From contig JAPYKE020000037.1 in assembly GCA_028554795.2 (NCBI GenBank), positions 3,040,501 through 3,104,500 of the forward strand: DNA of 64,000 bases, read 5' to 3'. The notes under the pieces were generated by a model, which saw nothing but the letters and a program-made list of their open reading frames with translations, did not search any database and was not told the DNA's origin. Origin of the DNA: Sinohyriopsis cumingii. Lineage: Eukaryota; Mollusca; Bivalvia; Unionida; Unionidae. Numbering within the stretch: the first letter of the stretch is position 1; the number at the start of each line of letters is the position of its first letter. The translations under genes were made by a program, and so were the position numbers. Positions 4,898 through 25,464 of this stretch are shown in pieces.

Positions 4898-5249
4898 AGT
4901 AGTGAAAGGGGGCGCTTTACGGACAATGGGAATTAGCATTAAAAACACCCTTGGGTCACTTTACGGACAAGGGAAATTTAACATGGAGAAAAATCGTGGG
5001 TCACTTTACGGACAAGGGAATTTAACATGGCAATAAATCGTGGGTCACTTTACGGACAAGGGGAATTGAACATGGCAATAAATCGTGGGTCACTTTACGG
5101 ACAAGGGGAATGGAACATGGGATTTTTTTTTTTTAAAAAAAGTTTTTTTAAATTTAAATTTAAATTTAAATTTAAAAAAGGGGTAGGCAATTCAAAGACT
5201 ATCTCTTTTCGAGAAATATGGCTGGCCCTGAAAAGGGCCTTTGGGTTTT
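4898..5249. repeat. left terminal inverted repeat of Polinton A
   Basis: Matches 25130-25464 in inverse orientation. The outer part holds four tandem copies of a roughly 45-bp unit beginning GGGTCACTTTACGGACAA (starts 4953, 4998, 5042, 5087). A T/A homopolymer and a (AAATTT)n run follow, and the inner 55 bp contains a histone-type 3' stem-loop on the minus strand. The two repeats differ mainly in the length of the AAATTT run. Confidence 0.93.
5224..5239 (-). terminator. histone-mRNA-type 3' stem-loop inside left TIR
   Basis: On the minus strand this reads GGCCCTTTTCAGGGCC, preceded by AAA. It is followed by AGCCA and then TCTCGAAAAGAGAT about 11 bases on. It lies 25 bp after the stop of the minus-strand gene 5265-5498, the usual spacing of histone genes. 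The identical signal is in the right TIR. Confidence 0.8.
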
Positions 5250-5264
5250 ATGTTAATGTATTCA

Positions 5265-5498
5265 TTAACATAAATGGCACCGCATTGGTCTTCTTCTTGT
5301 CCTTAGGCTGCGTCTTACTGTTGGTCCGTACATCAGCACTCTTTTCAGGCATCCTTGCCTCTCCACGTAGATCCTACGTATCCACAGGCTGGTGTTTGTC
5401 CTGTGGACAACGGTCCACTTGGATCGGACATACATGAGCAAGTCTGTCCGAAACATCATGGAAGACACAAGGGTGGATGACTCAACTGTAGTCCACAT
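5265..5498 (-). CDS. small Arg/Cys-rich terminal protein (Polinton A)
   Basis: 77 residues, intact; I recognise no family. The N-terminal half is Ser/Thr and Met-rich. The C-terminal half is strongly basic (stretches RRSLRTRRR and KWTVVHR) and ends in a Cys-x-x-Cys-like CHLC, suggesting nucleic-acid binding. That is inference only. The start is supported by a TATAAATA box 45 bp upstream (5543-5550) and by collinearity with 4182-4412 in B, where the gene is broken at codon 44. It is transcribed outward toward the left end and ends 25 bp before a histone-type 3' stem-loop in the TIR. Confidence 0.75.
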   Translation of the reverse strand: MWTTVESSTLVSSMMFRTDLLMYVRSKWTVVHRTNTSLWIRRIYVERQGCLKRVLMYGPTVRRSLRTRRRPMRCHLC

Positions 5499-5542
5499 CT
5501 TGAAGCGACGAGAACAGGTGAATCAATGCATTGAACGGCGCT

Positions 5543-5656
5543 TATTTATAGGGACAGAAAGGATTGAAACGGATTGAGTTCATTCACCAATCCGAACACG
5601 CGTTACAGAATTCAGTCAGCTCGCATCCAATCCGAAGAGAGCAGTCTGTGACGTCA
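5543..5656. promoter_or_regulatory. bidirectional CCAAT / TATA / CRE promoter region
   Basis: For the minus-strand gene there is TATAAATA (5543-5550) with CCAAT motifs at 5587-5591 and 5627-5631. A perfect palindromic CRE, TGACGTCA (5649-5656), lies between the two divergent genes, 62 bp before the ATG of 5718. CCAAT and CRE/ATF sites are common in cell-cycle-regulated metazoan promoters; their use here is inferred. Confidence 0.6.
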
Positions 5657-5717
5657 CGTAGTCAATATAGATTCGCTAGCGCTTGTGTGCATTCAGTCTA
5701 TGCGACAGTGATTCAAC

Positions 5718-6293
5718 ATGACGGAAACTCAGAAAACGATCCATTGGGGTGCACCAGCAGGGGAGACCGCCCAAGGGAACCCGGACTTACTTTCAGAAGA
5801 GGTCAATTGGGATTTTGTGGATTTTCTCTCCTCGCAAGAATTTGTTCCGGAACCTTCGTTACCTTCTTCATTACCGCAAGTGGAAAATTTTAGACAGAGA
5901 CAGAAAGAAGAATTGGAGAAATTTATACAACGACAAAAGGAAGCGGAACAGGCTTTTCTCCTACAGCAACAGCAACAAGAAGAAGAGGTAAGAAAAAAAC
6001 AACAACAGCAACAGCAAGAAGAAGTAGCAGCAAAGAAACAAGAGGGTGAAAATCAAACGGTCACGGTACTGTTGGACATTTTAGCAGAGTTAAGAAGTCT
6101 GAAACAAATGTATCAGACTTCTTTATCACGACCGAAGAGAATACGACCTTCCCGAGCTAAACACGTCAACCCTGTGACTAAGCCTACCGTACCACCCTTA
6201 GTGATTTCAACTCAATCATCATCAACATTACGCAGTCCAGAAGTAGGCCTTGGCCGTGGCAAAGGCATAAGGCAGTTAAAGTTGATTGCTTAA
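5718..6293 (+). CDS. Gln/Glu-rich coiled-coil protein with histone-type 3' end
   Basis: 191 residues; I recognise no family. An acidic N-terminus is followed at about residues 55-115 by a long helical segment rich in Gln, Glu and Lys with poly-Q runs. Then come a Leu-patterned stretch (LLDILAELRSL, about 117-127) that continues the coiled coil, and a basic, Pro/Ser-rich tail. It is absent from Polinton B, where the zinc-knuckle and Arg-rich genes are directly adjacent, so it is an accessory gene gained by A or lost from B. Its stop is 28 bp before a canonical histone-type stem-loop. An AATAAA lies far downstream at 6551-6556. Confidence 0.8.
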   Translation: MTETQKTIHWGAPAGETAQGNPDLLSEEVNWDFVDFLSSQEFVPEPSLPSSLPQVENFRQRQKEELEKFIQRQKEAEQAFLLQQQQQEEEVRKKQQQQQQEEVAAKKQEGENQTVTVLLDILAELRSLKQMYQTSLSRPKRIRPSRAKHVNPVTKPTVPPLVISTQSSSTLRSPEVGLGRGKGIRQLKLIA

Positions 6294-6321
6294 ACTCACC
6301 CTTTCACCATGAAGAAAAAAA

Positions 6322-6360
6322 GGCCCTTTTCAGGGCCACCCACATTTCTCGAAAAGAAAT
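6322..6360 (+). terminator. histone-type 3' stem-loop plus downstream purine element
   Basis: The best match in the window. AAA, GGCCCTTTTCAGGGCC (6322-6337) and ACCCA are followed 10 bp later by CTCGAAAAGAAAT (6348-6360). This is the order and spacing of metazoan replication-dependent histone genes: SLBP stem-loop, cleavage after ACCCA, and a U7-pairing downstream element. Confidence 0.85.
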
Positions 6361-6494
6361 ACAATTTCAATTTGCCAATAACTCAAAAAAAACTCACCCA
6401 TTTTACCCTTATAGTACGTGTCTGTGTATGAGTGCGTGAGTGTAGCTTCTTATTTTAAAATCAAAACTCAAAGACACTTACCTTATATCATTCA

Positions 6495-6500
6495 TTTATT
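6495..6500 (-). terminator. AATAAA polyadenylation signal of the zinc-knuckle gene
   Basis: AATAAA on the minus strand, 85 bp after the stop of the 6586-7056 gene. It is conventional, unlike the histone-type ends of the neighbouring accessory genes. Confidence 0.5.
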
Positions 6501-6585
6501 CTTTTTTCCATTTTTTACAATCCAATTCACAATTCACAACACAACACTTTAATAAAAAGTTCATTGACTTCTTCTTTCTCCTTGT

Positions 6586-7056
6586 TTAGTCTCTCTGTTT
6601 TTTGAATTTTTTCACCGTCACACTCTTTTCCTCTTCTTCCTCCTCCTCGCTTTCTTCCCTTCTTCTTTTCTTCTCCTGTTTCTTTTTCTTCACCTGTCTG
6701 CTTTCTTCCTCAGAAGAATCCCTCTCTTCTTTCAAAGAATCCCTTTCTTCTGAAGAATCCCTCTTTTCTTCTGACTCCTCTTGTTTCTTTTTTGGGCAAT
6801 CTGGAGACCAATGTCCTTTTTCTTGACAATAATAACAGGTATCTTGACTTTTGTCTTTTTTATCCCCTGTTTTTTTTCGTTTTTGACGGTCTGGACACTC
6901 TGAAGACCAATGCCCTTTCTTCTGACAGATATAGCAAGTATCTTGACTTTTATCTCTGAAGGAAGGAGAGTAGTCCGTAGGCTGGTCTGAAGAGAATTTT
7001 CTAATGACCCCTCGCAAAGCTCTGACGAAACGTTCCATCTGGTTAGTCTCTTCCAT
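6586..7056 (-). CDS. double CCHC zinc-knuckle protein (Polinton A)
   Basis: 156 residues. Two CCHC knuckles of the C-x2-C-x4-H-x4-C type are separated by a basic linker. A long Glu/Ser and Lys/Arg charged tail follows, ending in KKFKKQRD. I chose the start at 7054-7056 and not the upstream in-frame ATG at 7102-7104, because that one lies only about 5-15 bp from the TATA box at 7111-7119, before any plausible transcription start. The chosen start also matches the paralogue at 3573. Single-stranded nucleic-acid binding is inferred from the knuckles. It is divergent from PolB, which hints at a joint replication role. Confidence 0.85.
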   Translation of the reverse strand: MEETNQMERFVRALRGVIRKFSSDQPTDYSPSFRDKSQDTCYICQKKGHWSSECPDRQKRKKTGDKKDKSQDTCYYCQEKGHWSPDCPKKKQEESEEKRDSSEERDSLKEERDSSEEESRQVKKKKQEKKRRREESEEEEEEEKSVTVKKFKKQRD

Positions 7057-7108
7057 CGTTGTGCTCGGCTTGAGAGTGAAATGAATAGTGAAAGGACAAG
7101 ACACACAC

Positions 7109-7143
7109 CCTTTTATATACGCTGGTCTGCTATGACTATAAAG
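7109..7143. promoter_or_regulatory. divergent TATA pair, zinc-knuckle / PolB (A)
   Basis: The minus-strand TATATAAAAGG (7109-7119) serves the zinc-knuckle gene. The plus-strand TATAAAG (7137-7143) serves PolB, whose ATG is 48 bp downstream at 7191. The pair is conserved in B at 3486-3520. Confidence 0.7.
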
Positions 7144-7190
7144 TAGTTTATGGTGTTTGAACTTGAGTCATTTGACTTTTTGCTTTCAAG

Positions 7191-10100
7191 ATGAAACGAT
7201 CCCATTCATTCGAGAAGAAAGAAGAAGAAAGTAAGAGGCAGAAACGTGATCTCTCGCCTCGTACCAGGGCTGAAATCTTGGCACAAATTCATGCCAGTGA
7301 TTTTGAAGAGGACATGAGTGAACCAGAATCCAAAACCCTCTAAACCAAGTTCATCACCCTTTGTCAACCCTGAAAAGTACTATTCCATTCGAGAGACGGA
7401 AAAGCGCTCCTCTAGAAAATTTAGAACCACGGCTTACACCTACACGGTGAAGTTTAAAGATTTCAAGGCTGACGTACCGTTAGAGAAAGCAGAAGGGTTC
7501 ATCACCGAGATGTGGGATTCTTTGCTCACTGCACTCAAGCGACAATGTCAACCCAAAGAAGACGATCGCTTGAGACTTTCCATACAACACGACGGTTTGA
7601 AATCCCCTGTTTGGATCGAGTTTAGCACCCCTGCAGAATTGACTGCTTCCAAAGTCATGGACAAGATTCAACACGTACAACAATCTAATGATCAGTTTGA
7701 CATCACCGATGGTAAAGCCACACTAGACATGACCCACGTCTCTCCTCCTCAAGGGACAGGACGCAAAAAGATGTTATTGGTGGACGACCTTCGCAACACC
7801 AAAAAGAGTCTCGTCCGAATTAACAACCCTCATGACCAGATGTGTTTAGCCCGTGCCATCGTGGTGGGACGAACCTATGCCAACAAGAACGACACGGTAG
7901 AATGGAAAAGAACCTGGGACACTATTCAACGTTCCGACCGAGCCAAACAACGAAACGAAGCAGAACTCCTGTTACAACAAGCTGACCTGTCCAAAGACAC
8001 ACCCTGTGGTATTCCTGAGATGCAAAAATTGCAAGATGCCCTAGCTCCACGCTACACCTTGAAAGTGCACCCTCAAGAAGTGCGCGGACCTCTGTTGTTT
8101 CGAGGCCAAGACTTTAAGGACGGAAAATACATTCACCTTTATCATCACGATGAACATTTCGATACCATTACCAGTATCACTGGATTCCTGAGATACTGTT
8201 ATTATTGTGAGAAATGTGACCATGGTTATAACAATCGAGAGCAACACAAGCATTGTGGATCGAAATGCTCAGGATGTTTGGCCTCTTCACCCTGTCTGAG
8301 CGAAGGGCAAGAACCAGTGCCTTGTTCCACTTGTCTGCGCACGTTTGTCAGCCCTACCTGTTACCAACAACATTTGAAGACGCAAGGTTCATAGCAGAAA
8401 TGTGCTTGTCAACTCCTGAGATTGTGCCCTACGTGTGGACAAGGCATACGTACCAATAATACCAAGGCACACGTATGTTCAGGAAAGAAAAAATGTCACA
8501 TTTGTCACCACATCGTGGACTTGGAACACGAATGTTACGTGCAAAAATACCAACCCCCACCAGAGAAAGAGGACGGTCACAAGAAGAAAGGCAATTTCAT
8601 CTTTTTCGATTTCGAATGCATGCAAGAGACTGGCATTCACATTCCTAATTTCTGCGTGGCTCATCGAGCGTGCGAGAAGTGCATTCAAGAACCTATCTTC
8701 AGTCATTGCCCTCACTGCAGCAAGATTCCCGGAGGGCGTGAAAAAATCTTTCGGGGACCCAACACGTTAGCCGATTTTGCCCAATGGGTCTTAGACCCCG
8801 TCGACAAGACGTGGAGCCAAGAGGACATCGAACGTTACGGAGATTGTCATCGCCATGCCACGGTGATGGCTCACAATTTCTCCGGATACGATGGACAGTT
8901 TCTTTTGAGGTACTATACGGAACAAGGCACCGAGCGTCCTAAAGTGACTTTGAACGGAGCCAAAATCATTTTCATGCAAGTGGGACAAGTGCAGTTTAAA
9001 GATTCGATGAGCTATTTGGCCATGCCTTTGAGTCGAATGCCTAAAACGTTTGGAATGACAGAAATGGCTAAAGGGTACTTTCCACACTTTTTCAATACGG
9101 AAGCCAATCAACACGCCGTTCTACCCCATTTACCCGAGGCTCACTATTACGACCCCGACAACATGCGTACCGAACAACGAGAAGCTTTCTACGCTTGGTA
9201 CCAGGCTCATGCCTCTGACCCCTTCGACTTTCAGGAAGAAATGTTAAAGTATTGTCGTTCCGACGTGGACATTTTACGACGTTGCTGTGGAAAATTTCGA
9301 GAACTGTTCATGGAACACGGAGGGGTCGATCCTTTGAAAGAAGCTTGCACCATTGCCAAAGCGTGTTCCTTAGTGTATCGACAACGATTCATGCCTGAAA
9401 AGACCGTGGCTGTCATCAGTCCTCAAACGACCCACTTTGTCAAACGTCAATACTCGGTCAAAGCCCTACGTTGGTTACATTACTTGTGCGACAAGGAAGA
9501 CAAATGGATTCAGCATGCCCGCAACGGAGGGGGCGAAAAGACCATCGGAACGTATTCGGTCGATGGCTGGGACTTAGAAAACCCCAAGATCGTGTACGAG
9601 TTTAACGGTTGCTTATTTCACGGATGTCCCGTCTGTTACCCTGACCGTGGCACTAAAAATCAGTTTTTGCAACGAACCATGGAAGACTTGTACCAGGACA
9701 CTTGTCAGCGACGCCTAAAGTTGGAACAGGAAGGATACCAAGTGGTGGAAATGTGGGAACACGAATACGATCACCGCTTGAAAACCGATCCCGAGTTTAA
9801 ACGTGTCGTGGAAAGTTACCAGTTCATGGACCCGCTGAACCCGAGGGATAGTTTGTACGGAGGAAGGACCAATGCCACCTGTTTGCTGTACCAAGCCGAC
9901 GAAGAGAAAGGAGAAGAAATCAAATACTTGGACGTGTGTTCGCTGTATCCCTACGTGTGCAAATATTGTCGCTTTCCTGTAGGGCACCCGCAATTGCTGA
10001 CGGAACACATCGACCTGAAAAACATTCGACAATACGAAGGCTTGATCAAGTGCAAAGTTTTGCCTCCCACGAACCTATACCATCCCGTCTTACCTCACCA

Positions 10101-11235
10101 TTGTCAAGGCAAATTGATGTTTCCCTTGTGCCGTACTTGTGCCGAAACGTGCAACCAAGACCAACCTTGTCAGCACAGCCAGGAAGAACGTGCCTTGACG
10201 GGAACCTGGGTCAGCGTAGAATTGTTCAAAGCTATGGACATGGGATACCAACTGTTAGAAGTGTACGAAATTTGCCACTTTCCCAAGACACAACAATACC
10301 GCAAGGGTGACCCCACTCAGAAAGGCATTTTCGCCGACTACGTGGATGCCTTTTTGAAACTGAAGCAAGAAGCCAGCGGCTATCCTTCCTGGTGTCACAC
10401 TCCCGAAGACCAAATACAATTCAAAGAGAAATACTACGAACAAGAAGGCATCTCTTTAGACCACATCGAGAAAAACGAAGGCAGGAGATCGTTTGCCAAA
10501 GTGATGTTAAATTGCTTGTGGGGTAAAATGGCACAACGACCGTGTTTACCCAAGACGGAATATTTGACAGAACCTTCCCGCTACTTCCAGATGATTCACG
10601 ACAAAACCAAATACATGAAACACGTGGACGTCGTTCGAGAGAATTTGATCTTGGTCAATTACGAAGAAGATCTGGACTTTGTACAAGACGACCCTTTTGG
10701 AAATGTCATCATTGCGGCTTACGTGACAGCCCATGCTCGCTTAAAATTGTACGAAGCTTTAGAACTGTTAGAAGAACGCGTCCTGTACTTTGACACGGAC
10801 AGTTGCATTTACGTCCATCACCCTATTCAACATCACCCTAACATCGAAGGAGACCGTTTAGGAGCCTGGACAGACGAGCATCCCGACGACAAGATTCTAA
10901 GTTTCGTCAGTGGCGGTCCCAAAAATTACGGCTACGAATACCGGGACAAACAAGGAGAAGTGCACACGACGTGCAAAGTGAAAGGACTGACTCTGAATTA
11001 TCGTACCAGTCGAGTGGTCAACTTTGGGGTATTGAAAGAAGCCTTGCAATCGGGAGAGGATGGAAACTTTAAAGTGACCACTCACCAACCGAACAAGATT
11101 GTACGTTTACCCACTCACCACATCGTCAGTCGACCTTTGGAAAAAGTTTATCAAATCGTGTACCAGAAGCGAGTTCGACTTCCCAATCATTTCACCTTAC
11201 CGTATGGACACGTTGGTATAAAACATTGGTTGTAA
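7191..11235 (+). pseudogene. POLB: protein-primed DNA polymerase B, nearly complete, two breaks (Polinton A)
   Basis: Replicative polymerase of the element. Visible in order: N-terminal domain, a Cys/His-rich zinc-finger block (about 8205-8540), exonuclease motifs I (FFDFE, about 8605), II (NFSGYD, about 8874) and III (YCRSDVDIL, about 9250), and an inserted segment with FHGCPVCYP (about 9617). These are followed by palm motif A (DVCSLYP, about 9930), motif B (KVMLNCLWGK, about 10500), motif C (FDTDS, about 10790) and KVKGL (about 10977). Total about 1,340 codons, normal for the family. Two breaks: compared with copy B, one extra A in the run 7332-7335 sends the ATG frame to a stop at 7341-7343, and an in-frame TAG sits at 8392-8394. 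Downstream of that TAG the frame is open to 11235 with all catalytic motifs. Either A is recently disabled or the breaks are tolerated. Confidence 0.93.
11217..11224 (+). promoter_or_regulatory. TATA box of BIR gene 1, inside the 3' end of PolB
   Basis: TATAAAAC lies 42 bp before the ATG at 11259 and within the last codons of PolB. Confidence 0.6.
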
Positions 11236-11258
11236 GAGGATAGCCACTCACCAGAAAG

Positions 11259-11717
11259 ATGACTTCGCCACAGCAAGAATCGAGTGAGAAACCCGATGAG
11301 AACTCCAAGTTCAAACCCTACCATTTTCCAGTCTTCTTACCTGACTATTGTGATTGTGCCCGTCGATTGGACACGTTTCAGAAATGGCCTACGGATAGGG
11401 AAGGATTACCTTCTTCGCATGTTTTAGCTAGAACAGGATTTGTCTACTTGGGACCTGAGTCAGGATTGGGATACGAGGTACAGTGTTTCGCTTGCGGACT
11501 GAAGTTACGAATGGATCTATGTATCTATAAAGATTCAGCTATTCTGGAACATACTCGATGGTCTCCGCACTGCCCTTACCTTTCTATGGCCTTTCCACCC
11601 ATCACACTACGGTACAATGTTGACGGTACCTTAGAGACGGTACCTTCCGAAACAAGACATAAAAAACGTAAAAAAGGAAAGATGTACAAGCTGGAGACTG
11701 CATTGAGACTAGTATAA
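11259..11717 (+). CDS. BIR-domain protein (inhibitor-of-apoptosis-like) 1
   Basis: 152 residues with one BIR domain at about 30-108. It begins RLDTFQKWP, continues with LARTGFVYLG, then the zinc ligands CFAC, His in LEHTRW and Cys in PHCPYL. IAP proteins bind caspases or related partners and block cell death; an anti-death role for the element is inference. The Trp normally found after CGxxL in the peptide-binding groove is absent, and the loop there (MDLCIYK) is longer than usual, so partner choice may differ. A basic tail (KKRKKGK) follows the domain and there is no RING finger. Its stop codon lies inside the TATA box of the next gene. Confidence 0.9.
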   Translation: MTSPQQESSEKPDENSKFKPYHFPVFLPDYCDCARRLDTFQKWPTDREGLPSSHVLARTGFVYLGPESGLGYEVQCFACGLKLRMDLCIYKDSAILEHTRWSPHCPYLSMAFPPITLRYNVDGTLETVPSETRHKKRKKGKMYKLETALRLV

Positions 11718-11720
11718 AAA
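11713..11720 (+). promoter_or_regulatory. TATA box overlapping the stop codon of BIR 1
   Basis: TATAAAAA; bases 11715-11717 are the TAA stop of BIR 1. It lies 57 bp before the ATG of BIR 2 at 11777. Confidence 0.7.
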
Positions 11721-11776
11721 GGGGGCTATGGTCAAGATCGATAGTTCATTGTGACTACCAAGACCGAGCGAACAAG

Positions 11777-12520
11777 ATGAATACTTTGAAAAAGACATCG
11801 TTCCAGTTTGGGGATTGTAAAAAAGTTGTATCTTCCTCTAGTGTGACTAATATTGGATGGATAAGACCCATGCATTGCGACGGAAAATGTCCGGAAGGAA
11901 ACTGCGATTGTCCATGTGGTTACCATTGTAATTGCGTAACGGAGTTTGCAGACGAGTGCGATTGTGAGCCTTGCGATGGGACCGATGCTGTACCTTGTGA
12001 CCTGAGCGATGCCGTAAAGCATCATGGGAACTTTAGTACCCCTACCCCTGTCATGGAAAGTGATGCTGTGCGTGTCAAACCTGTGGGATGCGAAAGCGAT
12101 GCTGCTCGTCCTCTTGGACATTTTACTGGGTTTCGTTTTAAAGGGGAATGTCGACCTTCACGTTTACCTCCCTACGGATGTCATCCAGCCCTGAGCAAAC
12201 TCCTACCCATTTCACTCAACCCTCATCGAAACGAACCTGTGAAAAACGAATATTCGTTTCCTGTGCGTTCGTCGGAATACTGCGACTTTGAAAATCGTCT
12301 TCAATCGTTCAAAGGAAAATGGCCAAAGTATCTGGGAGGACCGACCCCCGAAGAATTAGCCAGAGCCGGATTTTTCTACTTGGGCGAAGGAGATAAAGTC
12401 AAGTGCTTCAGTTGCGGTGTGTCACTTCACCACTGGGAACCGCAAGATTCGGCCTACGTAGAACATGCTCGATGGTCACCGAATTGTCATTACTTACCTT
12501 TAGTGGGACCGAGACATTGA
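11777..12520 (+). CDS. Cys-rich plus BIR-domain protein (inhibitor-of-apoptosis-like) 2
   Basis: 247 residues. The N-terminus (about 35-75) is extremely rich in Cys with repeated CxC and CxxC spacing, suggesting metal binding. A middle segment has short SDAV/SDAA repeats. A canonical BIR is at about 166-243: NRLQSFKGKWP, LARAGFFYLG, CFSCG, Trp in HHW, VEHARW, PNCHYL. All zinc ligands and the groove Trp are present, so this copy looks more conventional than BIR 1. No RING or CARD is visible. It follows BIR 1 with its own TATA box. Tandem BIR genes with different N-termini suggest duplication followed by domain acquisition. Confidence 0.9.
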   Translation: MNTLKKTSFQFGDCKKVVSSSSVTNIGWIRPMHCDGKCPEGNCDCPCGYHCNCVTEFADECDCEPCDGTDAVPCDLSDAVKHHGNFSTPTPVMESDAVRVKPVGCESDAARPLGHFTGFRFKGECRPSRLPPYGCHPALSKLLPISLNPHRNEPVKNEYSFPVRSSEYCDFENRLQSFKGKWPKYLGGPTPEELARAGFFYLGEGDKVKCFSCGVSLHHWEPQDSAYVEHARWSPNCHYLPLVGPRH

Positions 12521-12548
12521 AGTAACTTCTTACCATAATCATCTGTTC

Positions 12549-13004
12549 ATGGATACTTTACAAGAGAACATTTGTGCTTTGCCTGTGGAGTTGAGAGAAC
12601 GCATTTACCGAGAGCTGGTGAAAATACAAGTGAAACGTAAAGAACAATTGCATCCGATACGTCACCGGTGTTTGAACCACTGGTACCTGAAGGCTATACA
12701 AGGACTGATTCAATTGAAAGTGTTCCATTGGACAGACATTGATCAACGACCTCCTGGTTATAAAAAGGAATGGTTTGGTATGGACGATTGTAGTTACTAC
12801 ATTGTAAACGTACTGCATCGAATTCCAGAGGAAGAGTTAACGAATTACCAACATCTTTCACACAATGTCAACTTGGTGAAAGAGGAAACTTCTGAACGAA
12901 TTGTAATGTGTAGATTAGTGACTCAACGATTTAAATTCGACACTGAAGTGAAACCATGTTTGTGCAAAGAGTACATTTCTTGTGTCAGACCAAAGAGGAT
13001 TTAG
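12549..13004 (+). CDS. F-box-like accessory protein, paralogue 1
   Basis: 151 residues. The N-terminus (about 8-35) has the Leu-Pro-x-Glu-Leu-x5-Ile-x3-Leu pattern of an F-box-like helix set. The remainder is a Trp/Tyr-containing region with charged segments that I do not recognise. F-box proteins recruit substrates to SCF ubiquitin ligases; use of that route here is inference from a short motif. The next gene starts with an almost identical 119-nt block and then diverges. Confidence 0.6.
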   Translation: MDTLQENICALPVELRERIYRELVKIQVKRKEQLHPIRHRCLNHWYLKAIQGLIQLKVFHWTDIDQRPPGYKKEWFGMDDCSYYIVNVLHRIPEEELTNYQHLSHNVNLVKEETSERIVMCRLVTQRFKFDTEVKPCLCKEYISCVRPKRI

Positions 13005-13016
13005 TATGACCTATTC

Positions 13017-14244: not shown

Positions 14245-14251
14245 AACATTC

Positions 14252-16521: not shown

Positions 16522-16526
16522 AAAGG
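16517..16526 (+). promoter_or_regulatory. TATA-like box overlapping the stop codon of 16135 gene
   Basis: GATAAAAAGG with stop TAA at 16519-16521; 45 bp before the ATG at 16571. Confidence 0.55.
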
Positions 16527-16570
16527 CCTTCGGAAGTCCCAAGATCTCAGAATCGACCGCTGACAACCCC

Positions 16571-17278: not shown

Positions 17279-17299
17279 GACACCAATCCACACAAAAAA

Positions 17300-18412: not shown

Positions 18413-18417
18413 CCATC

Positions 18418-18834
18418 ATGCCCTTTCACACAGCAGACGCAGCTACGTCGACCACTCCTTCTTCCCCTAGTTCTTCTGTGCAAGATTTACAAAAACAACC
18501 CTTGTGGGTGTGGTGTGGAGAACGTGTGCCTAAAACGCAAATCGTCTTTTTCTGCCAAATCTTCGTGGTGTATTGTGTCATCGGGGCAGCCATCGCCAAT
18601 TTGAGTTTGCAACAAGGAGACAAACAATTGTGGACCATTTTATTGAGCAGTTGCATCGGTTACCTGCTTCCCAATCCCTCCCTGAAATTCTCCTCGAACG
18701 GGAACGTTGTGTCCAGTGCCAGTGTCAGTCACCACTCCAATAACAACCACAACCAGAACCCCATTTTGGGCGGAGACACACCTCTGACATCCACTAATAT
18801 TCCCTCGGACAGCCACAGAACTCTGGAATTATGA
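18418..18834 (+). CDS. small two-pass membrane protein, conserved in Polintons
   Basis: 138 residues. A Ser/Thr-rich N-terminus is followed by two hydrophobic segments (about 41-60, QIVFFCQIFVVYCVIGAA, and about 71-84) and LLPNP, then a Ser/Asn/His-rich tail. I recognise the VPKTQIVFFCQ...GYLLPNP layout from other invertebrate Polintons, where it sits next to the penton gene, but know no function. Its stop overlaps the next start as ATGA (18831-18834), so coupling by reinitiation is possible. Confidence 0.75.
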   Translation: MPFHTADAATSTTPSSPSSSVQDLQKQPLWVWCGERVPKTQIVFFCQIFVVYCVIGAAIANLSLQQGDKQLWTILLSSCIGYLLPNPSLKFSSNGNVVSSASVSHHSNNNHNQNPILGGDTPLTSTNIPSDSHRTLEL

Positions 18835-19772
18835 GTCACCAAAACCAATTTTACTTAACCTTACCCAGTGACAGTTCCATGGAGGTGTTTCCCAACAACA
18901 CGTTGTGCTGTTACACGGCCAAATTACCTCAAGCCATCCCCTTAGATCACGAAGCCCATTGGGAAGTGGCTTTAGTGGAAATGATTCACCCAACCCAAGT
19001 CCACAATGTCATTCCCAATCAAAATTATTTTAAGGTAGAAGTTCATGACAAACCATTGCAAGAGGAGTTGGATAAGATTGGCACATATACCAATAAAACC
19101 TATGATGACAAAACTAAAACGTGGACCTACAACTTGTCCATTCTCCCAGGCTATTATTTCAGTGGTCATCATTTGGTCAGCGCCATAGCCTCCAAGTTTA
19201 ATGGCGTGTTTCTGAAAGCTTTGGGGAATGTCCAAAAGAGTGTCACCCTGGAATACCACAAAATAGCTCGTCGCTTTCTGATGAAATTTTCTGAGGGGTC
19301 CAAAAAATTCATGTCTTTCTTATTTTGTCCTGAATTGTTTGACATATTGGGCGGTGACACGGAGCTGAGGAAGATAGGAGAACAAAAAAAAAGCCCCGAA
19401 TTACCAGTCATTCATGACAACGACTCTTTTGCGAGGTATTTTCGTTTCCCGGTAGAACTGAACCAAGGACTGAATTTGATCTTCGTGTACTCCGATGTGG
19501 TGGAATACAACGTGGTGGGACACACCTCCGTGCCGTTACTGCGTGTCATTCCTTTCAAAGTGGATTCTGCCACAAACGCTGACGAGGAAGGTGGAAACAC
19601 TTATCACGTCCACCGCGAATTTGTCCATCCTCACTATTTACCTGTCAGCAAGTCGTATTTGGACACGGTCAACATTACTATAAAAGGAGATTTGGGACAA
19701 GATATTCCATTCACCAAAGGAAAAGTCACGGTGAAACTCCATTTTCGAAAACGGTTCTCTCACGACTCGTAA
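18831..19772 (+). CDS. minor capsid protein, penton-like single jelly roll
   Basis: 313 residues. It begins with FYLTLPSDSS and has the FPNNTLCCYTAKLP...WEVALVEM pattern of the Polinton minor capsid protein, which forms the fivefold vertices in predicted virions. The alternating beta-strand-rich pattern continues to the end with no breaks. Its position before the small basic protein and major capsid gene is the usual order. A TATAAAAGG (19679-19687) in its 3' part may serve the next gene. Confidence 0.9.
   Translation: MSHQNQFYLTLPSDSSMEVFPNNTLCCYTAKLPQAIPLDHEAHWEVALVEMIHPTQVHNVIPNQNYFKVEVHDKPLQEELDKIGTYTNKTYDDKTKTWTYNLSILPGYYFSGHHLVSAIASKFNGVFLKALGNVQKSVTLEYHKIARRFLMKFSEGSKKFMSFLFCPELFDILGGDTELRKIGEQKKSPELPVIHDNDSFARYFRFPVELNQGLNLIFVYSDVVEYNVVGHTSVPLLRVIPFKVDSATNADEEGGNTYHVHREFVHPHYLPVSKSYLDTVNITIKGDLGQDIPFTKGKVTVKLHFRKRFSHDS
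19679..19687 (+). promoter_or_regulatory. TATA box candidate for 19780 gene
   Basis: TATAAAAGG inside the end of the penton-like gene, 93-101 bp before the ATG at 19780. Confidence 0.45.
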
Positions 19773-19779
19773 GCAAGTC

Positions 19780-20199
19780 ATGTATCCAGTGTACCAAGGG
19801 GTGGCTCGACAGCGAGGACACGGTTTAGGAGACATGTTAAAATCGGCCTTTCGTTCGGTGGCCCCGGTGTTGAAACCGATGGTGACACGCGGATTGCACG
19901 CCTTGAAAGATGCGGCACTGACGCAAGGCAAAGAATTTCTCCAAAATGTCATCATCGACAAACAAAACCCTAAAGAAGCCTTCATGAGGGCAGGCAAAAA
20001 TGTCTTGCTGCAAACGGGCAAAGACATTTTGGGCCGACAAGAGACACCTATAAATGCCCTGCACGCTACCGAGTCAGGCATTCAGCAAGGACAAGGCAGA
20101 AAGAGACGACGAAGAAGAAAACACCCTTTCACCAGACTTCAAGCGAGAAAGGCCAAGAAAAGAAGAACCGTTCGAGACTTAGACGTTTTCGATTATTGA
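19780..20199 (+). CDS. small basic virion protein, pVI/pX-like architecture
   Basis: 139 residues. The N-terminus carries QRGHGLGDMLKSAFRS (about 11-26), an amphipathic-helix pattern following a Gly-rich start. A middle helix follows, and then a strongly basic tail (GRKRRRRRKH, about 105-114). The layout resembles adenovirus-type minor virion proteins that bind DNA and membranes. Its place between the two capsid genes supports a virion role; the specific homology is not certain. Confidence 0.65.
   Translation: MYPVYQGVARQRGHGLGDMLKSAFRSVAPVLKPMVTRGLHALKDAALTQGKEFLQNVIIDKQNPKEAFMRAGKNVLLQTGKDILGRQETPINALHATESGIQQGQGRKRRRRRKHPFTRLQARKAKKRRTVRDLDVFDY
20049..20055 (+). promoter_or_regulatory. 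TATA box candidate for the major capsid gene
   Basis: TATAAAT within the preceding gene, 158 bp before the ATG at 20213. Distance is long, so assignment is tentative. Confidence 0.3.
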
Positions 20200-20212
20200 A
20201 ACACAAAACAAA

Positions 20213-21514
20213 ATGATGCACCGAGAGTCTTGCGCCTGTTCCAAGACGGAACTGGATCTGTTTGCCATGCCCCCCACCATGATGACGATGCAAGAATCCC
20301 AATGGGTGGAATTTCATCCCGTCTCCTCACTGACCGATTCCGCTCCCATCGAGTTTGAAATCAAAGGACAGCCCGAAGATTACATCGATCTGAATAGCAG
20401 TTACTTGTACTTGAAAGTCCAAGTTCTAGATAAGGATGGTGCTGGAGTAGAAGACACTGAGAATATAGCTCCCGTCAACAATTTCATGCATTCCTTGTTC
20501 AGCTCAGTGGATTTGTACTTGAATAACAAACTGGTCAGCAGCAGCATGGATACATACCCTTACCGTGCCTACCTGGAAAATCTCTTGACGTACGGAACAG
20601 ATGCCAAGGATACTCATCTCAATGCCTGTGTGCTGTGGGTAGATGACACAGCGGGCAAGTTCGACGCAATAGATCCAAGCAATGAAGGCTTTGAGGCAAG
20701 AGAAACCAAAATCTTAGACAAGAAAAGTTTAGAACTGATGGATCGTTTGCATTTGGACATGTGGTTGCAAGAGAAATATTTGCTGAACGGGGTGAATGTC
20801 CGCTTGAGACTGAATCGCAGCAGTGCCACTTTCCATTTGCAGGCTGCTGATCCTGCTAAGCCTCCTAAAAGCATAATCCAGGAGGCCAAACTCTACGTAC
20901 GACGCGTAGAAGTGTTACCTAAAGTGGCAAACGACATCAGTCAAACGTTGAGCAGAACGACCGCCAAGTATCCGATCCGACGTGTGGAAGTGAAAACCTT
21001 CACCATTTCTGCTGGACTGCAATCCATAACCGAAGATCATCTGTTTCAAGGACAGCTACCCAAGCGTTTAATCCTTGGTATGGTCTCGAATTCAGCCTTC
21101 AACGGAGCCATCAAAGAAAATCCTTTCAACTTTCAACACTTCGGTGTGAAGAAAATCGAAGTCAGTAGGGATGGCAAGACCTTGTGTACCCGACCTTTCG
21201 AACCTGACTTTGCCAACAAAAATTACTTGAGATCGTACTTGTCCCTGTACGAAGCCACCGGCCAGTTAGGAACCAACACCAGTCACGGCATTGAGTACGA
21301 AGATTATGCAGGAGGCTATGCTTTGTGGGCTTTCGATTTCACTCCAGACCAAGGCAGCGACGAAGGACATTTCCACCCTATAAAATCTGGCCAGATTCGT
21401 GTGGAACTTCAGTTTGCAAAGCCACTGGAACAGACAGTGAACGTCATCCTGTATGCAGAATTCGATAATACCATAGAAATCAACAGTTTGAGAGAAGTCA
21501 TTCTAGATTATTAG
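20213..21514 (+). CDS. MCP: major capsid protein, double jelly roll (hexon-like)
   Basis: 433 residues, intact, the usual length. Characteristic segments include EFEIKGQPEDYIDL near residue 45, NNFMHSLFSSVDLYLNN at about 88-104, PYRAYLENLLTYG at about 114-126, and the C-terminal GQIRVELQFAKPL. These are typical of Polinton/adintovirus major capsid proteins, which trimerise into hexon-like capsomers. It is followed closely by the conserved 21521 gene and the protease. Confidence 0.95.
   Translation: MMHRESCACSKTELDLFAMPPTMMTMQESQWVEFHPVSSLTDSAPIEFEIKGQPEDYIDLNSSYLYLKVQVLDKDGAGVEDTENIAPVNNFMHSLFSSVDLYLNNKLVSSSMDTYPYRAYLENLLTYGTDAKDTHLNACVLWVDDTAGKFDAIDPSNEGFEARETKILDKKSLELMDRLHLDMWLQEKYLLNGVNVRLRLNRSSATFHLQAADPAKPPKSIIQEAKLYVRRVEVLPKVANDISQTLSRTTAKYPIRRVEVKTFTISAGLQSITEDHLFQGQLPKRLILGMVSNSAFNGAIKENPFNFQHFGVKKIEVSRDGKTLCTRPFEPDFANKNYLRSYLSLYEATGQLGTNTSHGIEYEDYAGGYALWAFDFTPDQGSDEGHFHPIKSGQIRVELQFAKPLEQTVNVILYAEFDNTIEINSLREVILDY
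21379..21385 (+). promoter_or_regulatory. TATA box candidate for 21521 gene
   Basis: TATAAAA in the 3' part of the major capsid gene, 142 bp before the ATG at 21521. Tentative. Confidence 0.3.
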
Positions 21515-21520
21515 AAAGCC

Positions 21521-22027
21521 ATGGAAGACTGTTATCCCTCTTTACCTAGTGGAGAAACTTTAAAGATGGAATGTGAGGAGACCGTGGAAAAAGAAGAATC
21601 TCAAGACAAAGACGAAGAAGATATCATGATGAAGTCGAGATGGCCAGAACAAGAAGCCCATTTAGTCTCCTGTTTTGCCAAACACTTGGTCGACAAAATG
21701 ACGGAATTGATCAAGAAAAATTGCTATGGATGTCAAAACGATCATCCCAGTCAAATTCAACACGATAAATGCTTGATGTTAAGTCAAGAAGAAAAATTGG
21801 ACGAGTATCTGGACGAAGCTTGGAGTCTCATCTCGAACGAAGACGTGTTGCACCAGTGGTATAAAGACTTGCGTGAACATTCTTGTCCACCATTAACCAC
21901 TCAAGAGATCCATCGTATCGAAGCTCTCCTGAATCAGAGTGAGGAAACAGAACGAATAACCGTTTATTCGTCAGACATTTTCAAGCAAAAAGTCAGGATC
22001 GAATTGACGACTTATTATTACCTGTGA
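21521..22027 (+). CDS. conserved Polinton protein with C-x2-C...H putative zinc site
   Basis: 168 residues. An acidic N-terminus is followed by a helical region and CYGCQNDHPSQIQHDKCLM (about 68-86), supplying Cys-x2-Cys and His/His/Cys in zinc-site spacing. The GC..DHPSQ..H..CLM pattern is one I know from other metazoan Polintons between the capsid gene and protease; its function is unknown. The gene is intact. Confidence 0.75.
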   Translation: MEDCYPSLPSGETLKMECEETVEKEESQDKDEEDIMMKSRWPEQEAHLVSCFAKHLVDKMTELIKKNCYGCQNDHPSQIQHDKCLMLSQEEKLDEYLDEAWSLISNEDVLHQWYKDLREHSCPPLTTQEIHRIEALLNQSEETERITVYSSDIFKQKVRIELTTYYYL

Positions 22028-22052
22028 AGAAGAAGAAAACAAACACAAATCA

Positions 22053-22613
22053 ATGGATACCTGGGAACTTTATTACCTTTTGAACCACAGTTCGTATACG
22101 GCTTCTTGGAATCCCGTCGTCTGTGCTAAAGATGAACTCCCTCATCGCAAACCTAAAGACCATCAAGCTTACGTGATCAACACGGACGACAGTCATCTCC
22201 CAGGAACCCACTGGGTAGCCGTCTACTTTCCTCAAGAAGGATGTGTGGAATATTTCGATTCGTACGGATTGCCCCCTTTGGAAGACGATATCATCGACTT
22301 TATGAGAAGAAATGCTCAAACCACCCGATTCAATAATGTGAAATTACAAGGCACAGATTCCTTGGTGTGTGGACAGTACTGTGTGTATTTTCTGCATCAT
22401 CGCAGCCTGGGCTATTCCTTAGAACATTTAGTGACTCATTTCGATCCTCGTTCTTCTGCTAGAAACGATGTGAAAGTAGATCGATGGTTTTGTGACCAGT
22501 ATGCTTATCTTTTGTCTCAAGCTAGGAAACGTAGTGTCCATCAATGGCCTAATGATTTCCAACAGTGGAAATCACGATTTCATTCACAACGTTGTCAGCC
22601 CTGTTCTAAGTAG
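22053..22613 (+). CDS. PRO: adenain-like cysteine protease (Ulp1 fold)
   Basis: 186 residues. His53 in GTHWVAVYF, Asp69 in EYFDSYGLP and Cys110 in CGQYCVYFL form the expected catalytic triad order, with a Gln just before the Cys. Capsid-maturation protease of Polintons. Length is normal and the frame is intact. An AATAAA lies downstream at 22725-22730. Confidence 0.95.
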   Translation: MDTWELYYLLNHSSYTASWNPVVCAKDELPHRKPKDHQAYVINTDDSHLPGTHWVAVYFPQEGCVEYFDSYGLPPLEDDIIDFMRRNAQTTRFNNVKLQGTDSLVCGQYCVYFLHHRSLGYSLEHLVTHFDPRSSARNDVKVDRWFCDQYAYLLSQARKRSVHQWPNDFQQWKSRFHSQRCQPCSK

Positions 22614-22846
22614 ATTGTTGATTGAGAAAAAAAATGTTTGTGATTTGAAAAAAATGTTTGATGTTATAGTGTTATATTATTGTTAAAAATGTTAGAGTTG
22701 TTGTTTAGTGTTAAGTGATTTTTGAATAAAAAATGTTGTGTTTAGAAAAAATGCTTTTGTGGTTTGTTTAGCTATAAGAATGTTGGATTGATGCTCTTTC
22801 ATTTCTTACTATCCCTCTCATGAACGTTGCGGCTCGAAAACCGTGT
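22614..22846 (+). other. 3' untranslated region with polyadenylation signal
   Basis: An AT-rich spacer with several imperfect AAAAATGTTTG repeats and AATAAA at 22725-22730. It separates the core genes from the terminal three-gene cassette. No ORF of note. Confidence 0.5.
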
Positions 22847-22884
22847 GGGGGATGTTTTCCTTCACGTCCGCGCTTTCACTTTAA
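22847..22884 (+). promoter_or_regulatory. 32-bp shared promoter box, copy 1
   Basis: The 32 bp 22847-22878 ends TTCACGTCCGCGCTTTCA and is repeated exactly at 23721-23752 and 24440-24471. Each copy precedes an ATG by 90-93 bp and is followed by an A/T-rich TATA position (here the weak TTTAAG). Confidence 0.7.
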
Positions 22885-22938
22885 GAACCGGGTTGTTCCC
22901 AGTCTAGCCATCCATTGTCGACTCATCCTCCTAAGAAG

Positions 22939-23295
22939 ATGTGCTCCAAACTAGCTAAGCTCAACGAAGCCTACGTGAATCTGCATAGGGTCAGACACAG
23001 TCTGATACCGAAACCAGAAGAAATAGAGAATGTGAGAATGTTAAAAATCACTGAAGACCTGATAGAAGAGCTCTTCAGAGAAGAAATGAACAGGGAGAAA
23101 GAAGAATGGACAGAGAAGTACAGACTTCAGAGACAGCAGCAACAGCAGCAACAACAGCAACAGCAGCAACCTGAAGCTGACAGAGGCTTTGTCGATTGTC
23201 GTATCGACACCAAAGAATTCTTCTTCTCTTTCCGAAGAAGCAGACCTATTGCCAGAAAGTCTATCCTCAGAGGACATCGCATTCTTAGAAACTAA
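22939..23295 (+). CDS. terminal cassette gene 1: helical poly-Q protein, histone-type 3' end
   Basis: 118 residues; no family recognised. The helical N-terminus (KLAKLNEAYVNLHRVRHSL) and a charged segment lead into a run of 13 Gln, and the tail is basic with several Arg. The start is the ATG at 22939, 92 bp after the shared box start. The first 60 residues resemble the next two genes in pattern. After the CAG repeat another frame is also open (to 23395) and is Ser/Glu-rich, but it would run through the stem-loop, so I prefer this stop. The stop lies 33 bp before the stem-loop. Confidence 0.6.
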   Translation: MCSKLAKLNEAYVNLHRVRHSLIPKPEEIENVRMLKITEDLIEELFREEMNREKEEWTEKYRLQRQQQQQQQQQQQQPEADRGFVDCRIDTKEFFFSFRRSRPIARKSILRGHRILRN

Positions 23296-23328
23296 AAAAG
23301 AATGCCATAGCAAAAAAAACAAAAAAAC

Positions 23329-23365
23329 AGCCCTTTTCAGGGCTACCCAATACTCTAGAAAAGAA
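23329..23365 (+). terminator. histone-type 3' stem-loop and purine element, cassette gene 1
   Basis: AGCCCTTTTCAGGGCT (23329-23344) has a basal A-T pair in place of G-C; pairing is preserved by a compensatory change. It is followed by ACCCA and TCTAGAAAAGAAAT. A conventional AATAAA follows at 23411-23416. Confidence 0.8.
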
Positions 23366-23720
23366 ATAACGATCGATTTGCCAATGTGTGTGTAGGTAGA
23401 GTAGTGCGAAAATAAACACTAACTCTTTCTTAAAAATTTTGAGGGTATGTGTTTGTGTGATTGTGTTTGTAAGTGATAAAGTAGGTTGGTGTGGATAGTA
23501 GATTAAAATGATGTTTGTTTTTTTGGGCTGCTTGAGGTGTATATTTGGGGTTAGATTGGATTGCTTTGCATATGTAAATAGTCTATTGAAGTGATTCATA
23601 AAAAATTTTATAATAGTGATGGGTAGCATAAAAAAGTGAGCGAGTGTTTCTTTTAGGTCCGCGCGTTGTTGTTGTTGTTTTTTTAGTCGTGATCTAGGTA
23701 AGATGAATTTTATGTTTTTA

Positions 23721-23760
23721 GGGGGATGTTTTCCTTCACGTCCGCGCTTTCAGTATAAAT
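23721..23760 (+). promoter_or_regulatory. 32-bp shared promoter box, copy 2, plus TATA
   Basis: Exact repeat of the box at 22847, followed by TATAAAT (23754-23760); 93 bp from box start to the ATG at 23814. Confidence 0.75.
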
Positions 23761-23813
23761 TGAAACTCGTTCGGCAGTCCAGCTACCCTTGTTGATTGAT
23801 CAACACCAAAAAA

Positions 23814-24137
23814 ATGAACACGAGACTTGAGAAACTGTTGGAGCTTCATGTGCATCTGGAATATGCCAGGCGCATATTAAATGAACTGGCCGCTGAAGCC
23901 ATTGTCGAGGAGGGAAGGATAAGAGAGGAGGAAAGAAGAAAAAAAGAAGAGGAGGAGAGAAGATATAAAGAAGAGGAGGAGGAAAAGGAGAGAAGAAAAA
24001 ATTTCAGAATCCCAGAGAGTGAAAATTGGGATTCTGAAGCGACATATCCTGCCTCTGCTCTCTCCCCCCAAAAGGTAAAAAGTAACTGGGGGATAAGATG
24101 TGTATGTGGCGCCAGGCCTGGAAGGTGCCACCATTAA
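23814..24137 (+). CDS. terminal cassette gene 2: charged coiled-coil protein, histone-type 3' end
   Basis: 107 residues; no family recognised. The helical N-terminus LEKLLELHVHLEYARRIL is patterned like gene 1. A Glu/Lys/Arg coiled coil of about 40 residues follows, then a tail with two Cys and His. The start at 23814 is preferred because it is the first ATG and lies 93 bp from the promoter box. The stop lies 29 bp before the stem-loop. Its 3' flank is nearly identical to that of gene 1, showing tandem duplication. Confidence 0.6.
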   Translation: MNTRLEKLLELHVHLEYARRILNELAAEAIVEEGRIREEERRKKEEEERRYKEEEEEKERRKNFRIPESENWDSEATYPASALSPQKVKSNWGIRCVCGARPGRCHH

Positions 24138-24166
24138 CCAGGTGTCCATGAAGTTCCAAACAAAAC

Positions 24167-24203
24167 AGCCCTTTTCAGGGCTACCCAATACTCTAGAAAA
24201 GAA
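24167..24203 (+). terminator. histone-type 3' stem-loop and purine element, cassette gene 2
   Basis: AGCCCTTTTCAGGGCT (24167-24182), ACCCA, then CTAGAAAAGAAAT. AATAAA follows at 24287-24292 after a (TG)n tract. Confidence 0.8.
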
Positions 24204-24221
24204 ATAACCATCAATTTGCCA

Positions 24222-24222
<1 letters not shown>

Positions 24223-24269
<47 letters not shown>
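24223..24269 (+). repeat. (TG)n microsatellite
   Basis: About 23 TG units. The homologous position after cassette gene 1 has only about 4 units, so it expanded after the duplication. Confidence 0.95.
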
Positions 24270-24271
<2 letters not shown>

Positions 24272-24439
24272 GTAGAGTAGTGTGAAAATAAACACTAACT
24301 CTTTATTAATAGTGGAAGTGTGTGTTTGTGTGTTTGTGTTTGTAAATGGTGAAGTAAGTTTGTGTGAATAGTAAATTATGGGTTTCTTAGCGTATGTGAA
24401 GAGTATAGTTAGGGTTATATTATATGAAATGAGAAAGTA

Positions 24440-24479
24440 GGGGGATGTTTTCCTTCACGTCCGCGCTTTCACTATAATA
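24440..24479 (+). promoter_or_regulatory. 32-bp shared promoter box, copy 3, plus TATA
   Basis: Exact repeat of the box, followed by TATAATA (24473-24479); 90 bp from box start to the ATG at 24530. Confidence 0.75.
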
Positions 24480-24529
24480 ACCCACCACGTTCGTCGTTCG
24501 AACCATTCTACGGAATAATAAAAACGAAG

Positions 24530-25114
24530 ATGGTGGTTGCAAGTGACTTGTTCAACAATTTGGTACATATATACAACTGGATAATAGATGGTATCTATGT
24601 AGTGGAGAGACTGGAAAAAGAATGGAAGATAGCAGAGTACCTGGACTACGCTAAATGTCTAAACATAGCCAAAGAAGTGATAGCAGGAATGATTGAAGAG
24701 GAGGAAAAAAGATTGAGAGGTATGATAAATCCCACCTATGTCAGAGTGGGAAGCCTAAAGGAAGCACTTGACAATGCAAGCAAAGTCAGGTGCTTTCTTG
24801 AAAAAATGTCACATGGGACAGAGTGCTCTTATGTGGAGAGAGGCCAGGAAAGACTGAGGAAAGGAGAGGAGTTGATGAGAAAAGTGATGGAGGTAGAAGT
24901 CAAGAAGATTAAAGAGAGATGGTATAAAGAAAGAAAAGAAGAAGAAAATAGAAAAAAAAGGGATGAATTTGAAAAACTGAACACAAACTGGATGAAAATC
25001 CAAGAGAAGTTCAGGGCCATGGGCCACCCGGACTGGCTGCCGGAAACAGAAAAGAAAAAGAAGAAAGGAATGATGGACAAAATAAGAGGATGGTGGAAGA
25101 AGTTAAGAAGTTAA
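24530..25114 (+). CDS. terminal cassette gene 3: charged helical protein, histone-type 3' end
   Basis: 194 residues; no family recognised. The helical N-terminus (VVERLEKEWKIAEYLDYA, then ...KEVIAGMIEEEEKRL) is patterned like cassette genes 1 and 2. It continues with a long Lys/Glu coiled coil and a C-terminal Trp/Lys amphipathic segment (MMDKIRGWWKKLRS) that could bind membranes; this is inference. It reads outward to the right end and stops 25 bp before the stem-loop inside the TIR, mirroring the left-end gene. Confidence 0.7.
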   Translation: MVVASDLFNNLVHIYNWIIDGIYVVERLEKEWKIAEYLDYAKCLNIAKEVIAGMIEEEEKRLRGMINPTYVRVGSLKEALDNASKVRCFLEKMSHGTECSYVERGQERLRKGEELMRKVMEVEVKKIKERWYKERKEEENRKKRDEFEKLNTNWMKIQEKFRAMGHPDWLPETEKKKKKGMMDKIRGWWKKLRS

Positions 25115-25129
25115 AAGAAGAAGAAGAAA

Positions 25130-25464
25130 AAAACCCAAAGGCCCTTTTCAGGGCCAGCCATATTTCTCGAAAAGAGATAGTCTTTGAATTGCCTAAATTT
25201 AAATTTAAATTTAAAAAAACTTTTTTTAAAAAAAAAAAATCCCATGTTCCATTCCCCTTGTCCGTAAAGTGACCCACGATTTATTGCCATGTTCAATTCC
25301 CCTTGTCCGTAAAGTGACCCACGATTTATTGCCATGTTAAATTCCCTTGTCCGTAAAGTGACCCACGATTTTTCTCCATGTTAAATTTCCCTTGTCCGTA
25401 AAGTGACCCAAGGGTGTTTTTAATGCTAATTCCCATTGTCCGTAAAGCGCCCCCTTTCACTACT
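25130..25464. repeat. right terminal inverted repeat of Polinton A
   Basis: Inverse copy of 4898-5249 with the same four 45-bp subrepeats and ending CACTACT. It contains the histone-type stem-loop near its inner edge. Confidence 0.93.
25140..25180 (+). terminator. histone-type 3' stem-loop inside right TIR
   Basis: GGCCCTTTTCAGGGCC (25140-25155), AGCCA, then CTCGAAAAGAGATAG (25166-25180). Identical to the left-TIR copy and oriented outward, so one TIR sequence serves the 3' ends of both terminal genes. Confidence 0.8.

Follow-up and report, generated by a model that had tools for sequence, protein, structure and literature searches.

The question raised by this locus is whether a mobile element can carry the gene ends of its host's histone genes, and what these would do for it. 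The locus is a 64,000-nucleotide stretch of the Sinohyriopsis cumingii genome (contig JAPYKE020000037.1, positions 3,040,501 to 3,104,500; hereafter the window), which contains a complete Polinton with five small accessory genes towards its ends: acc77 and acc191 on the left, and acc126, acc113, and acc194 on the right. A first-pass annotation had claimed that each of them is followed by a stem-loop and a purine-rich histone downstream element (HDE), as in replication-dependent histone mRNAs. At the sequence level this claim is borne out, and the five histone genes of the host end likewise. The right-end genes also carry promoter elements of the host histone genes, which the earlier annotation had not mentioned and which constitute a new observation alongside the 3' ends. 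Histone gene regulation has probably been copied at both gene ends, which would give S-phase mRNAs devoid of poly(A).

Direct reading of the sequence places all five stem-loops where they had been described (Table 1); every stem is a perfect 6-bp helix, every loop is TTTC, and the distance from the end of the stop codon to the first stem base is indeed short (26, 29, 34, 30, and 26 nt, from left to right). The tail following the stem, described as usually ACCCA, has this form at three of the five sites, whereas the two sites at the terminal inverted repeats (TIRs) read AGCCA. The Rfam model of the histone 3' stem-loop (RF00032, Histone3), which had been named as a check, matches at all five sites and at a sixth in a neighbouring partial copy; four of the six score above the gathering score of 34 bits and two below it. 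The stem-loops are tied to stops rather than scattered: among the 23 listed genes of the element, one is found within 400 nt after the stop in 5/5 end-located accessory genes and in 0/18 others. A search for the 16-mer with up to two mismatches finds six occurrences in the window against 0.03 expected, none of 100 shuffles reaching six, and a chance origin is rejected by these shuffles and by the Rfam E-values. The sites are not independent, however: those at 5199-5244 and 25135-25180 are one sequence, located at the inner edges of the TIRs, and the 3' ends of acc126 and acc113 are nearly identical. In the Polinton, the stem-loop is GGCCCTTTTCAGGGCC or AGCCCTTTTCAGGGCT, and the HDE, 13 nt further on, is CTCGAAAAGA or CTAGAAAAGA.

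The host supplies the closest comparison. Its genome (2.9 Gb) contains tandem histone arrays of about 8.3 kb, located by a histone-fold family search (loci L061-L063), and the unit in L061 comprises H4, H2B, H2A, H1, and H3, all of which match Histone3 at 35-39 bits. Four of these genes have the stem GGCCCT/AGGGCC (with loops TTTT, TTTC, TTTA, and TTTT), and H1 has GGTCCT/AGGACC. The stem and the HDE are separated by 13-14 nt, and the HDE reads CTAGAAAAGA in four of the five genes, as it does in acc126 and acc113. In H2B, H3, and H4 the spacing is the same 13 nt as in the Polinton, the H4 value having been read by eye where the script had stopped at an earlier AAAAG. A stretch further downstream (TCAATTTGCC-like) is apparently common to Polinton and host ends, as judged by eye only. 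When six Polinton and five host ends are aligned, 66/66 stem cells are paired; two of the six pairs show changes in both bases (A-U for G-C in the Polinton, U-A for C-G in host H1), and the covariation is limited, since the other four never vary. The Polinton ends share with the replication-dependent histone mRNA 3' end, the substrate of SLBP and the U7 small nuclear ribonucleoprotein (snRNP), the 6-bp stem, the 4-nt loop, the flanking A's, the ACCCA-like tail, and the purine HDE. They differ in that they sit on genes of a mobile element, the products of which gave no histone match in the Pfam scans made; besides, the outermost stem pair in acc126 and acc113 is A-U, unlike in histone 3' ends. 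No similarity to the host array was seen in coding sequence or in the wider flanks. To our knowledge, histone-type 3' ends hardly occur outside histone genes. Canonical histone genes of Hydractinia that possess a stem-loop and an HDE are described as expressed in S phase (PMC5011920), and the histone mRNAs of a bivalve are described as carrying the stem-loop, some of them with purine elements (PMC6210712).

The resemblance to histone genes extends to the promoters of the right-end genes. The element GGGGGATGTTTTCCTTCACGTCCGCGCTTTCA stands upstream of acc126, acc113, and acc194 and is followed by a TATA-like box, which is weakest in acc126; its core matches the host H2B promoter at 23/24 bases and that of H1 at 24/26. 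In the host the element reads GATGTTTTCCNTCACGTCCGCGCT in H2B, with a near copy in H1, and a second shared element, TTTCTTTTAGGTCCGCGCGTT, belongs to H4. The promoter matches score 20-21, against a maximum of 12 in 150 shuffles, and none of 20 other Polinton genes, including the left-end acc77 and acc191, scores above 12 (the upstream anchors fell short of the ATG by 6 nt in host H2A and by 3 nt in acc126, leaving the matches unaffected). Such elements on the right-end genes fit a coupling of these genes to S phase.

Both signals recur throughout the genome. In the Rfam scan of the host genome, 75 matches were scored of 589,472 first-look candidates, and 55 of the 75 were examined. All 55 are Polinton ends; 25 of them follow acc77, 10 follow acc191, 10 follow acc194, 9 follow another open reading frame (ORF), and one has no recognised ORF, so that 54 of the 55 lie downstream, in sense, of either an accessory gene or another ORF. 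Five of the nine other ORFs start with MASN..L(D/N)KM, and the remainder are pieces resembling this MASN type. The last gene before the right TIR comes in two kinds without detected mutual similarity, namely acc194 or an ORF of the MASN type (about 130 aa). The two share one 3' cassette, and the right-end terminal gene can be read as an exchangeable cassette set between the same promoter element and the same stem-loop. The promoter motif (at most 5 mismatches in 24) is located upstream, in sense, in 19 of the 55 loci, which are 19 of the 20 right-end loci (L070 being the exception), and eight of these 19 contain the exact H2B form. In one left-end locus, L016, copies of the motif are found on the far side of its stem-loop. 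Across 105 stem-loops of strict pattern, from the 55 loci and the window, the stem-HDE spacing is 13 nt in 101 and 14 nt in two, while two lack AAAAG, a count that excludes decayed stem-loops and includes selected ones.

The examined matches were chosen by Rfam score, and their central stem-loops are therefore selected for quality; for this reason conservation was assessed on other stem-loops in the same loci, in 12 acc113 and 13 acc191 copies together with the window. Between acc113 copies, pairwise identity is 0.94 in the stem-loop, 0.93 in the HDE, and 0.84 in the end of the coding sequence; between acc191 copies, the corresponding values are 0.97, 0.99, and 0.92. The noncoding flanks reach 0.71-0.84 and the spacer 0.73-0.76, so that conservation still peaks at the stem-loop and the HDE. 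Six stem pairs are kept in nine of the 12 acc113 stem-loops, two having one mispair and one (L020) a mispair and a changed loop, and in 10 of the 13 from acc191 (one by wobble), three having one mispair.

The element family is abundant. A 23-mer promoter pattern occurs 30,227 times in the whole genome and its reversed control not once; the first listed places often form groups of two or three, 700-900 bp apart, as in the window. The 150 scored genome copies of acc191 (the best slice of 32,621 candidates) are 98-100% identical, one having an internal stop. Together with the motif count, these near-identical copies point to a recent and very large amplification, and at one to three motifs per right end, as in the loci seen, the genome would contain on the order of ten thousand right ends.

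The following course of events is proposed. In S phase, the histone transcription factors of the host would act on the Polinton promoter elements; host SLBP would bind the stem-loop in the transcript, the U7 snRNP would pair with the HDE, and the RNA would be cleaved after the stem. The resulting mRNA would end in the stem-loop without poly(A), be made and translated in S phase, and decay once S phase is over, so that the accessory proteins would appear with DNA replication, like the early proteins of a DNA virus. For the capsid, polymerase, and integrase genes, ordinary polyadenylation is probable. We know of no small DNA virus in which early genes use histone-type RNA ends. Expression tied to host S phase has a parallel in such viruses, as the early gene for T antigen of BK polyomavirus is described as dependent on S phase (PMC11620372). 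Expression of the end-located accessory genes through the replication-dependent histone gene pathway of the host is, on the signals found, very likely. The step from these signals to a non-polyadenylated, S-phase mRNA is one that we infer, and it is plausible that the timing serves an element in need of host replication. A further-reaching proposal, possible if doubtful, is that the element has come to parasitise the entire histone regulon: its accessory genes would be recognised as histone genes at both ends and drawn into the sites of histone transcription and processing, and some ten thousand copies could compete with the host's own histone genes for SLBP and U7.

Several observations weigh against expression by the histone pathway. 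An AATAAA lies 258, 116, and 150 nt downstream of acc191, acc126, and acc113, respectively (the two outermost genes, acc77 and acc194, have none in the 400 nt downstream). The shared promoter element is missing from the left-end genes acc77 and acc191 and lies upstream in 0/35 left-end loci. Of the 25 unselected stem-loops, five contain a single mispair and a sixth combines a mispair with a changed loop. The Rfam model of U7 (RF00066) gave no match in the host genome, 65 of 801,960 candidates having been scored. Finally, the stem-loop is present in none of four Polinton loci from other records, which are partial (8-21 kb) and may lack the ends.

Other explanations account for part of these data. 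The histone likeness could be one of form only, the hairpins acting as DNA (in replication or at the element ends) or as plain terminators; two of the five sites do lie at the inner edge of a TIR, and hairpins terminate transcripts in some giant viruses. Yet three sites are internal, the loop TTTC stands on the mRNA-sense strand with the HDE on that side, at the spacing of 13 nt that dominates the strict stem-loops (101/105), and the HDE of acc126 and acc113 equals that of the host histone genes. A pure hairpin needs neither the strand, nor the HDE, nor the promoter match, all of which speak against it, and we give this explanation next to no credence. The match to host histone signals, including the 21/21 stretch of the H4 promoter, could also stem from a recent accidental capture of a histone gene fragment that is now functionless. 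Against this, the similarity seen ends at the functional sites; at acc113, where the median dS is 0.77, the stem-loop and HDE are still 93-94% identical as opposed to 0.72-0.83 in the noncoding flanks, and the acc194 and MASN-type genes, which have no detected similarity, carry the same 3' cassette. Accidental capture is accordingly very improbable.

The direction of transfer might be the reverse for the promoter element, the host histone promoters having taken it from the amplified Polinton, in view of the 30,227 motif copies as compared with two close host sites per histone unit. The stem-loop, by contrast, is found in metazoan histone genes generally, and no Polinton flanks appear at the host sites in the comparisons made, which makes this transfer improbable. 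An explanation closer to the proposed one, and unlikely rather than improbable, holds that the 3' signals work mainly by providing mRNA without a tail, which would thereby evade decay or silencing linked to poly(A), with S-phase timing as a side effect. It would suit the left-end genes, where the histone-type 3' end occurs and the shared promoter element does not; in acc126, acc113, and acc194, however, the histone promoter elements favour timing.

The element that bears these signals is a Polinton by structure and gene content (Table 1). Inverted-repeat comparison shows identical TIR arms at 4898-5168 and 25194-25464, and the 6-bp target duplication TCTATT is read directly at 4892-4897 and 25465-25470. 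The Pfam scan finds a viral-type DNA polymerase B (PolB; PF03175 in the ORF at 8422-11235), an integrase with a chromodomain (PF00665 and PF00385), and a Pox_A32-type ATPase (PF04665). The Polinton set of PolB, integrase, packaging ATPase, capsid protein, and protease is represented, the adenovirus protease (PF00770) only by a weak match below the cut-off (E 0.0081). The protein of the ORF at 20213-21514 has no match of its own in the Pfam scan. Of 7987 scored candidates, 1284 are its relatives at E 0.001 or better; those among the 120 listed include proteins of Mercenaria, Crassostrea, Ostrea, Saccostrea, and Littorina, and the double-jelly-roll domain PF21738 occurs in one of the listed relatives. 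It is on account of these relatives that the product is named here as the putative capsid protein. Polinton/Maverick elements, with capsid protein relatives in Mercenaria, Crassostrea, Ostrea, and Littorina, share with the window element PolB, the A32-type ATPase, the rve and chromo integrase, the capsid protein, the long TIRs, and the 6-bp duplication. Two adjoining ORFs occupy 11259-12520, the first with a BIR (inhibitor of apoptosis) domain by Pfam and the second similar to it by eye.

Table 1. Coordinates of the Polinton, its accessory genes, and their histone-type signals in the window
Feature	Position	Strand	Evidence or remark
Complete Polinton	4898..25464	.	Inverted repeat, target duplication, core genes by Pfam
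Accessory gene acc77 (77 aa)	5265..5498	-	Intact in 32/35 loci matched; dN/dS 0.12
Accessory gene acc191, Q-rich	5718..6293	+	dN/dS 0.47 in 21 intact ORFs of 35 loci matched
Accessory gene acc126	22915..23295	+	First ATG at 22939
Accessory gene acc113	23796..24137	+	First ATG at 23814; dN/dS 0.21 in 12 intact ORFs of 19 loci matched
Accessory gene acc194	24530..25114	+	ORF; predicted all-helical
Stem-loop GGCCCTTTTCAGGGCC and HDE after acc77, inner edge of left TIR	5224..5239 (Rfam 5199-5244)	-	RF00032, 35.6 bits, E 1.2e-6
Stem-loop and HDE after acc191	6322..6337 (Rfam 6317-6361)	+	RF00032, 41.2 bits, E 9.6e-9
Stem-loop AGCCCTTTTCAGGGCT and HDE CTAGAAAAGA after acc126	23329..23344 (Rfam 23324-23369)	+	RF00032, 31.0 bits, E 6.4e-5, below gathering score
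Stem-loop and HDE CTAGAAAAGA after acc113	24167..24182 (Rfam 24162-24207)	+	RF00032, 31.0 bits, E 6.4e-5, below gathering score
Stem-loop and HDE after acc194, inner edge of right TIR	25140..25155 (Rfam 25135-25180)	+	RF00032, 35.6 bits, E 1.2e-6
Sixth stem-loop and HDE, end of partial inverted copy	4431..4476	+	RF00032, 38.4 bits, E 1.1e-7
Promoter element of acc126	22847..22878	+	23/24 match to host H2B promoter
Second promoter element of acc113, TTTCTTTTAGGTCCGCGCGTT	23647..23667	+	21/21 identical to host H4 promoter
Promoter element of acc113, then TATA-like box	23721..23752	+	Comparison with host histone promoters
Promoter element of acc194, then TATA-like box	24440..24471	+	Comparison with host histone promoters

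Each of the five accessory genes is a single, intronless ORF. Their ratios of nonsynonymous to synonymous substitution (dN/dS; Table 1) show that acc77, acc113, and acc191, for which multi-copy values are available, evolve as coding sequence; the estimate for acc194 comes from one pair. Median dS is 0.90 for acc77 and 0.094 for acc191 in the same loci, though the genes adjoin, and because of this difference the left end seems to be a mosaic of old and young parts. The predicted fold of acc194 has no PDB match at E 0.001 or better, and the homologues found (5 of acc194 and 20 of acc191) are all on short contigs without context.

The surroundings of the complete element contain further element sequences. 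A second copy, partial and inverted, adjoins its left end (4182-4476 and about 1-4500); it is 92-95% similar over long stretches, and its HDE reads CTCAAAAAGA. The region 26000-64000 holds remnants of a second double-jelly-roll element, with an ATPase-like ORF fragment in four repeats at 5702-bp steps (29586, 35288, 40990, and 46692) and a capsid-like fragment with PF21738 at 55962-56408. No Histone3 match at E up to 1 occurs in the 26-64 kb part of the window.

Outside the host genome, the four partial Polinton loci mentioned above are GTDB contigs, in records titled as symbiont or bacterial metagenome-assembled genomes, and probably represent host contamination. No accessory gene was found in them, and since they lack both these genes and the stem-loop, in which they differ from the window element, the histone-type ends look like a trait of this element family. 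In IMG/VR, no relative of the capsid protein was found by single protein or by alignment, and three stem-loop patterns gave 0, 0, and 1 stretches. The single stretch (L064) resembles a T4-like phage in its ORFs, gave no Histone3 match up to E 0.1, and was rejected. The one stretch retrieved with the promoter pattern (L094) was dismissed as a coding coincidence; it gave no Histone3 match, and the pattern lies in a phage-like ORF, as the antisense of a DVKENI stretch.

Neither Polintons nor histone 3' ends are new in themselves, and it is their union, together with the histone promoter element, that is new; searches of the open-licence PMC literature, judged by titles and abstract openings, listed no report of histone stem-loops in Polintons or in transposable elements. 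If the proposed expression is true, a mobile element equipped with a histone promoter element and a histone RNA end is a naturally occurring example of a selfish element that has joined the S-phase programme, and the way in which Polintons time their expression in animal cells becomes testable. Poly(A)-selected RNA sequencing may then miss some Polinton transcripts, so that these elements may look more silent than they are.

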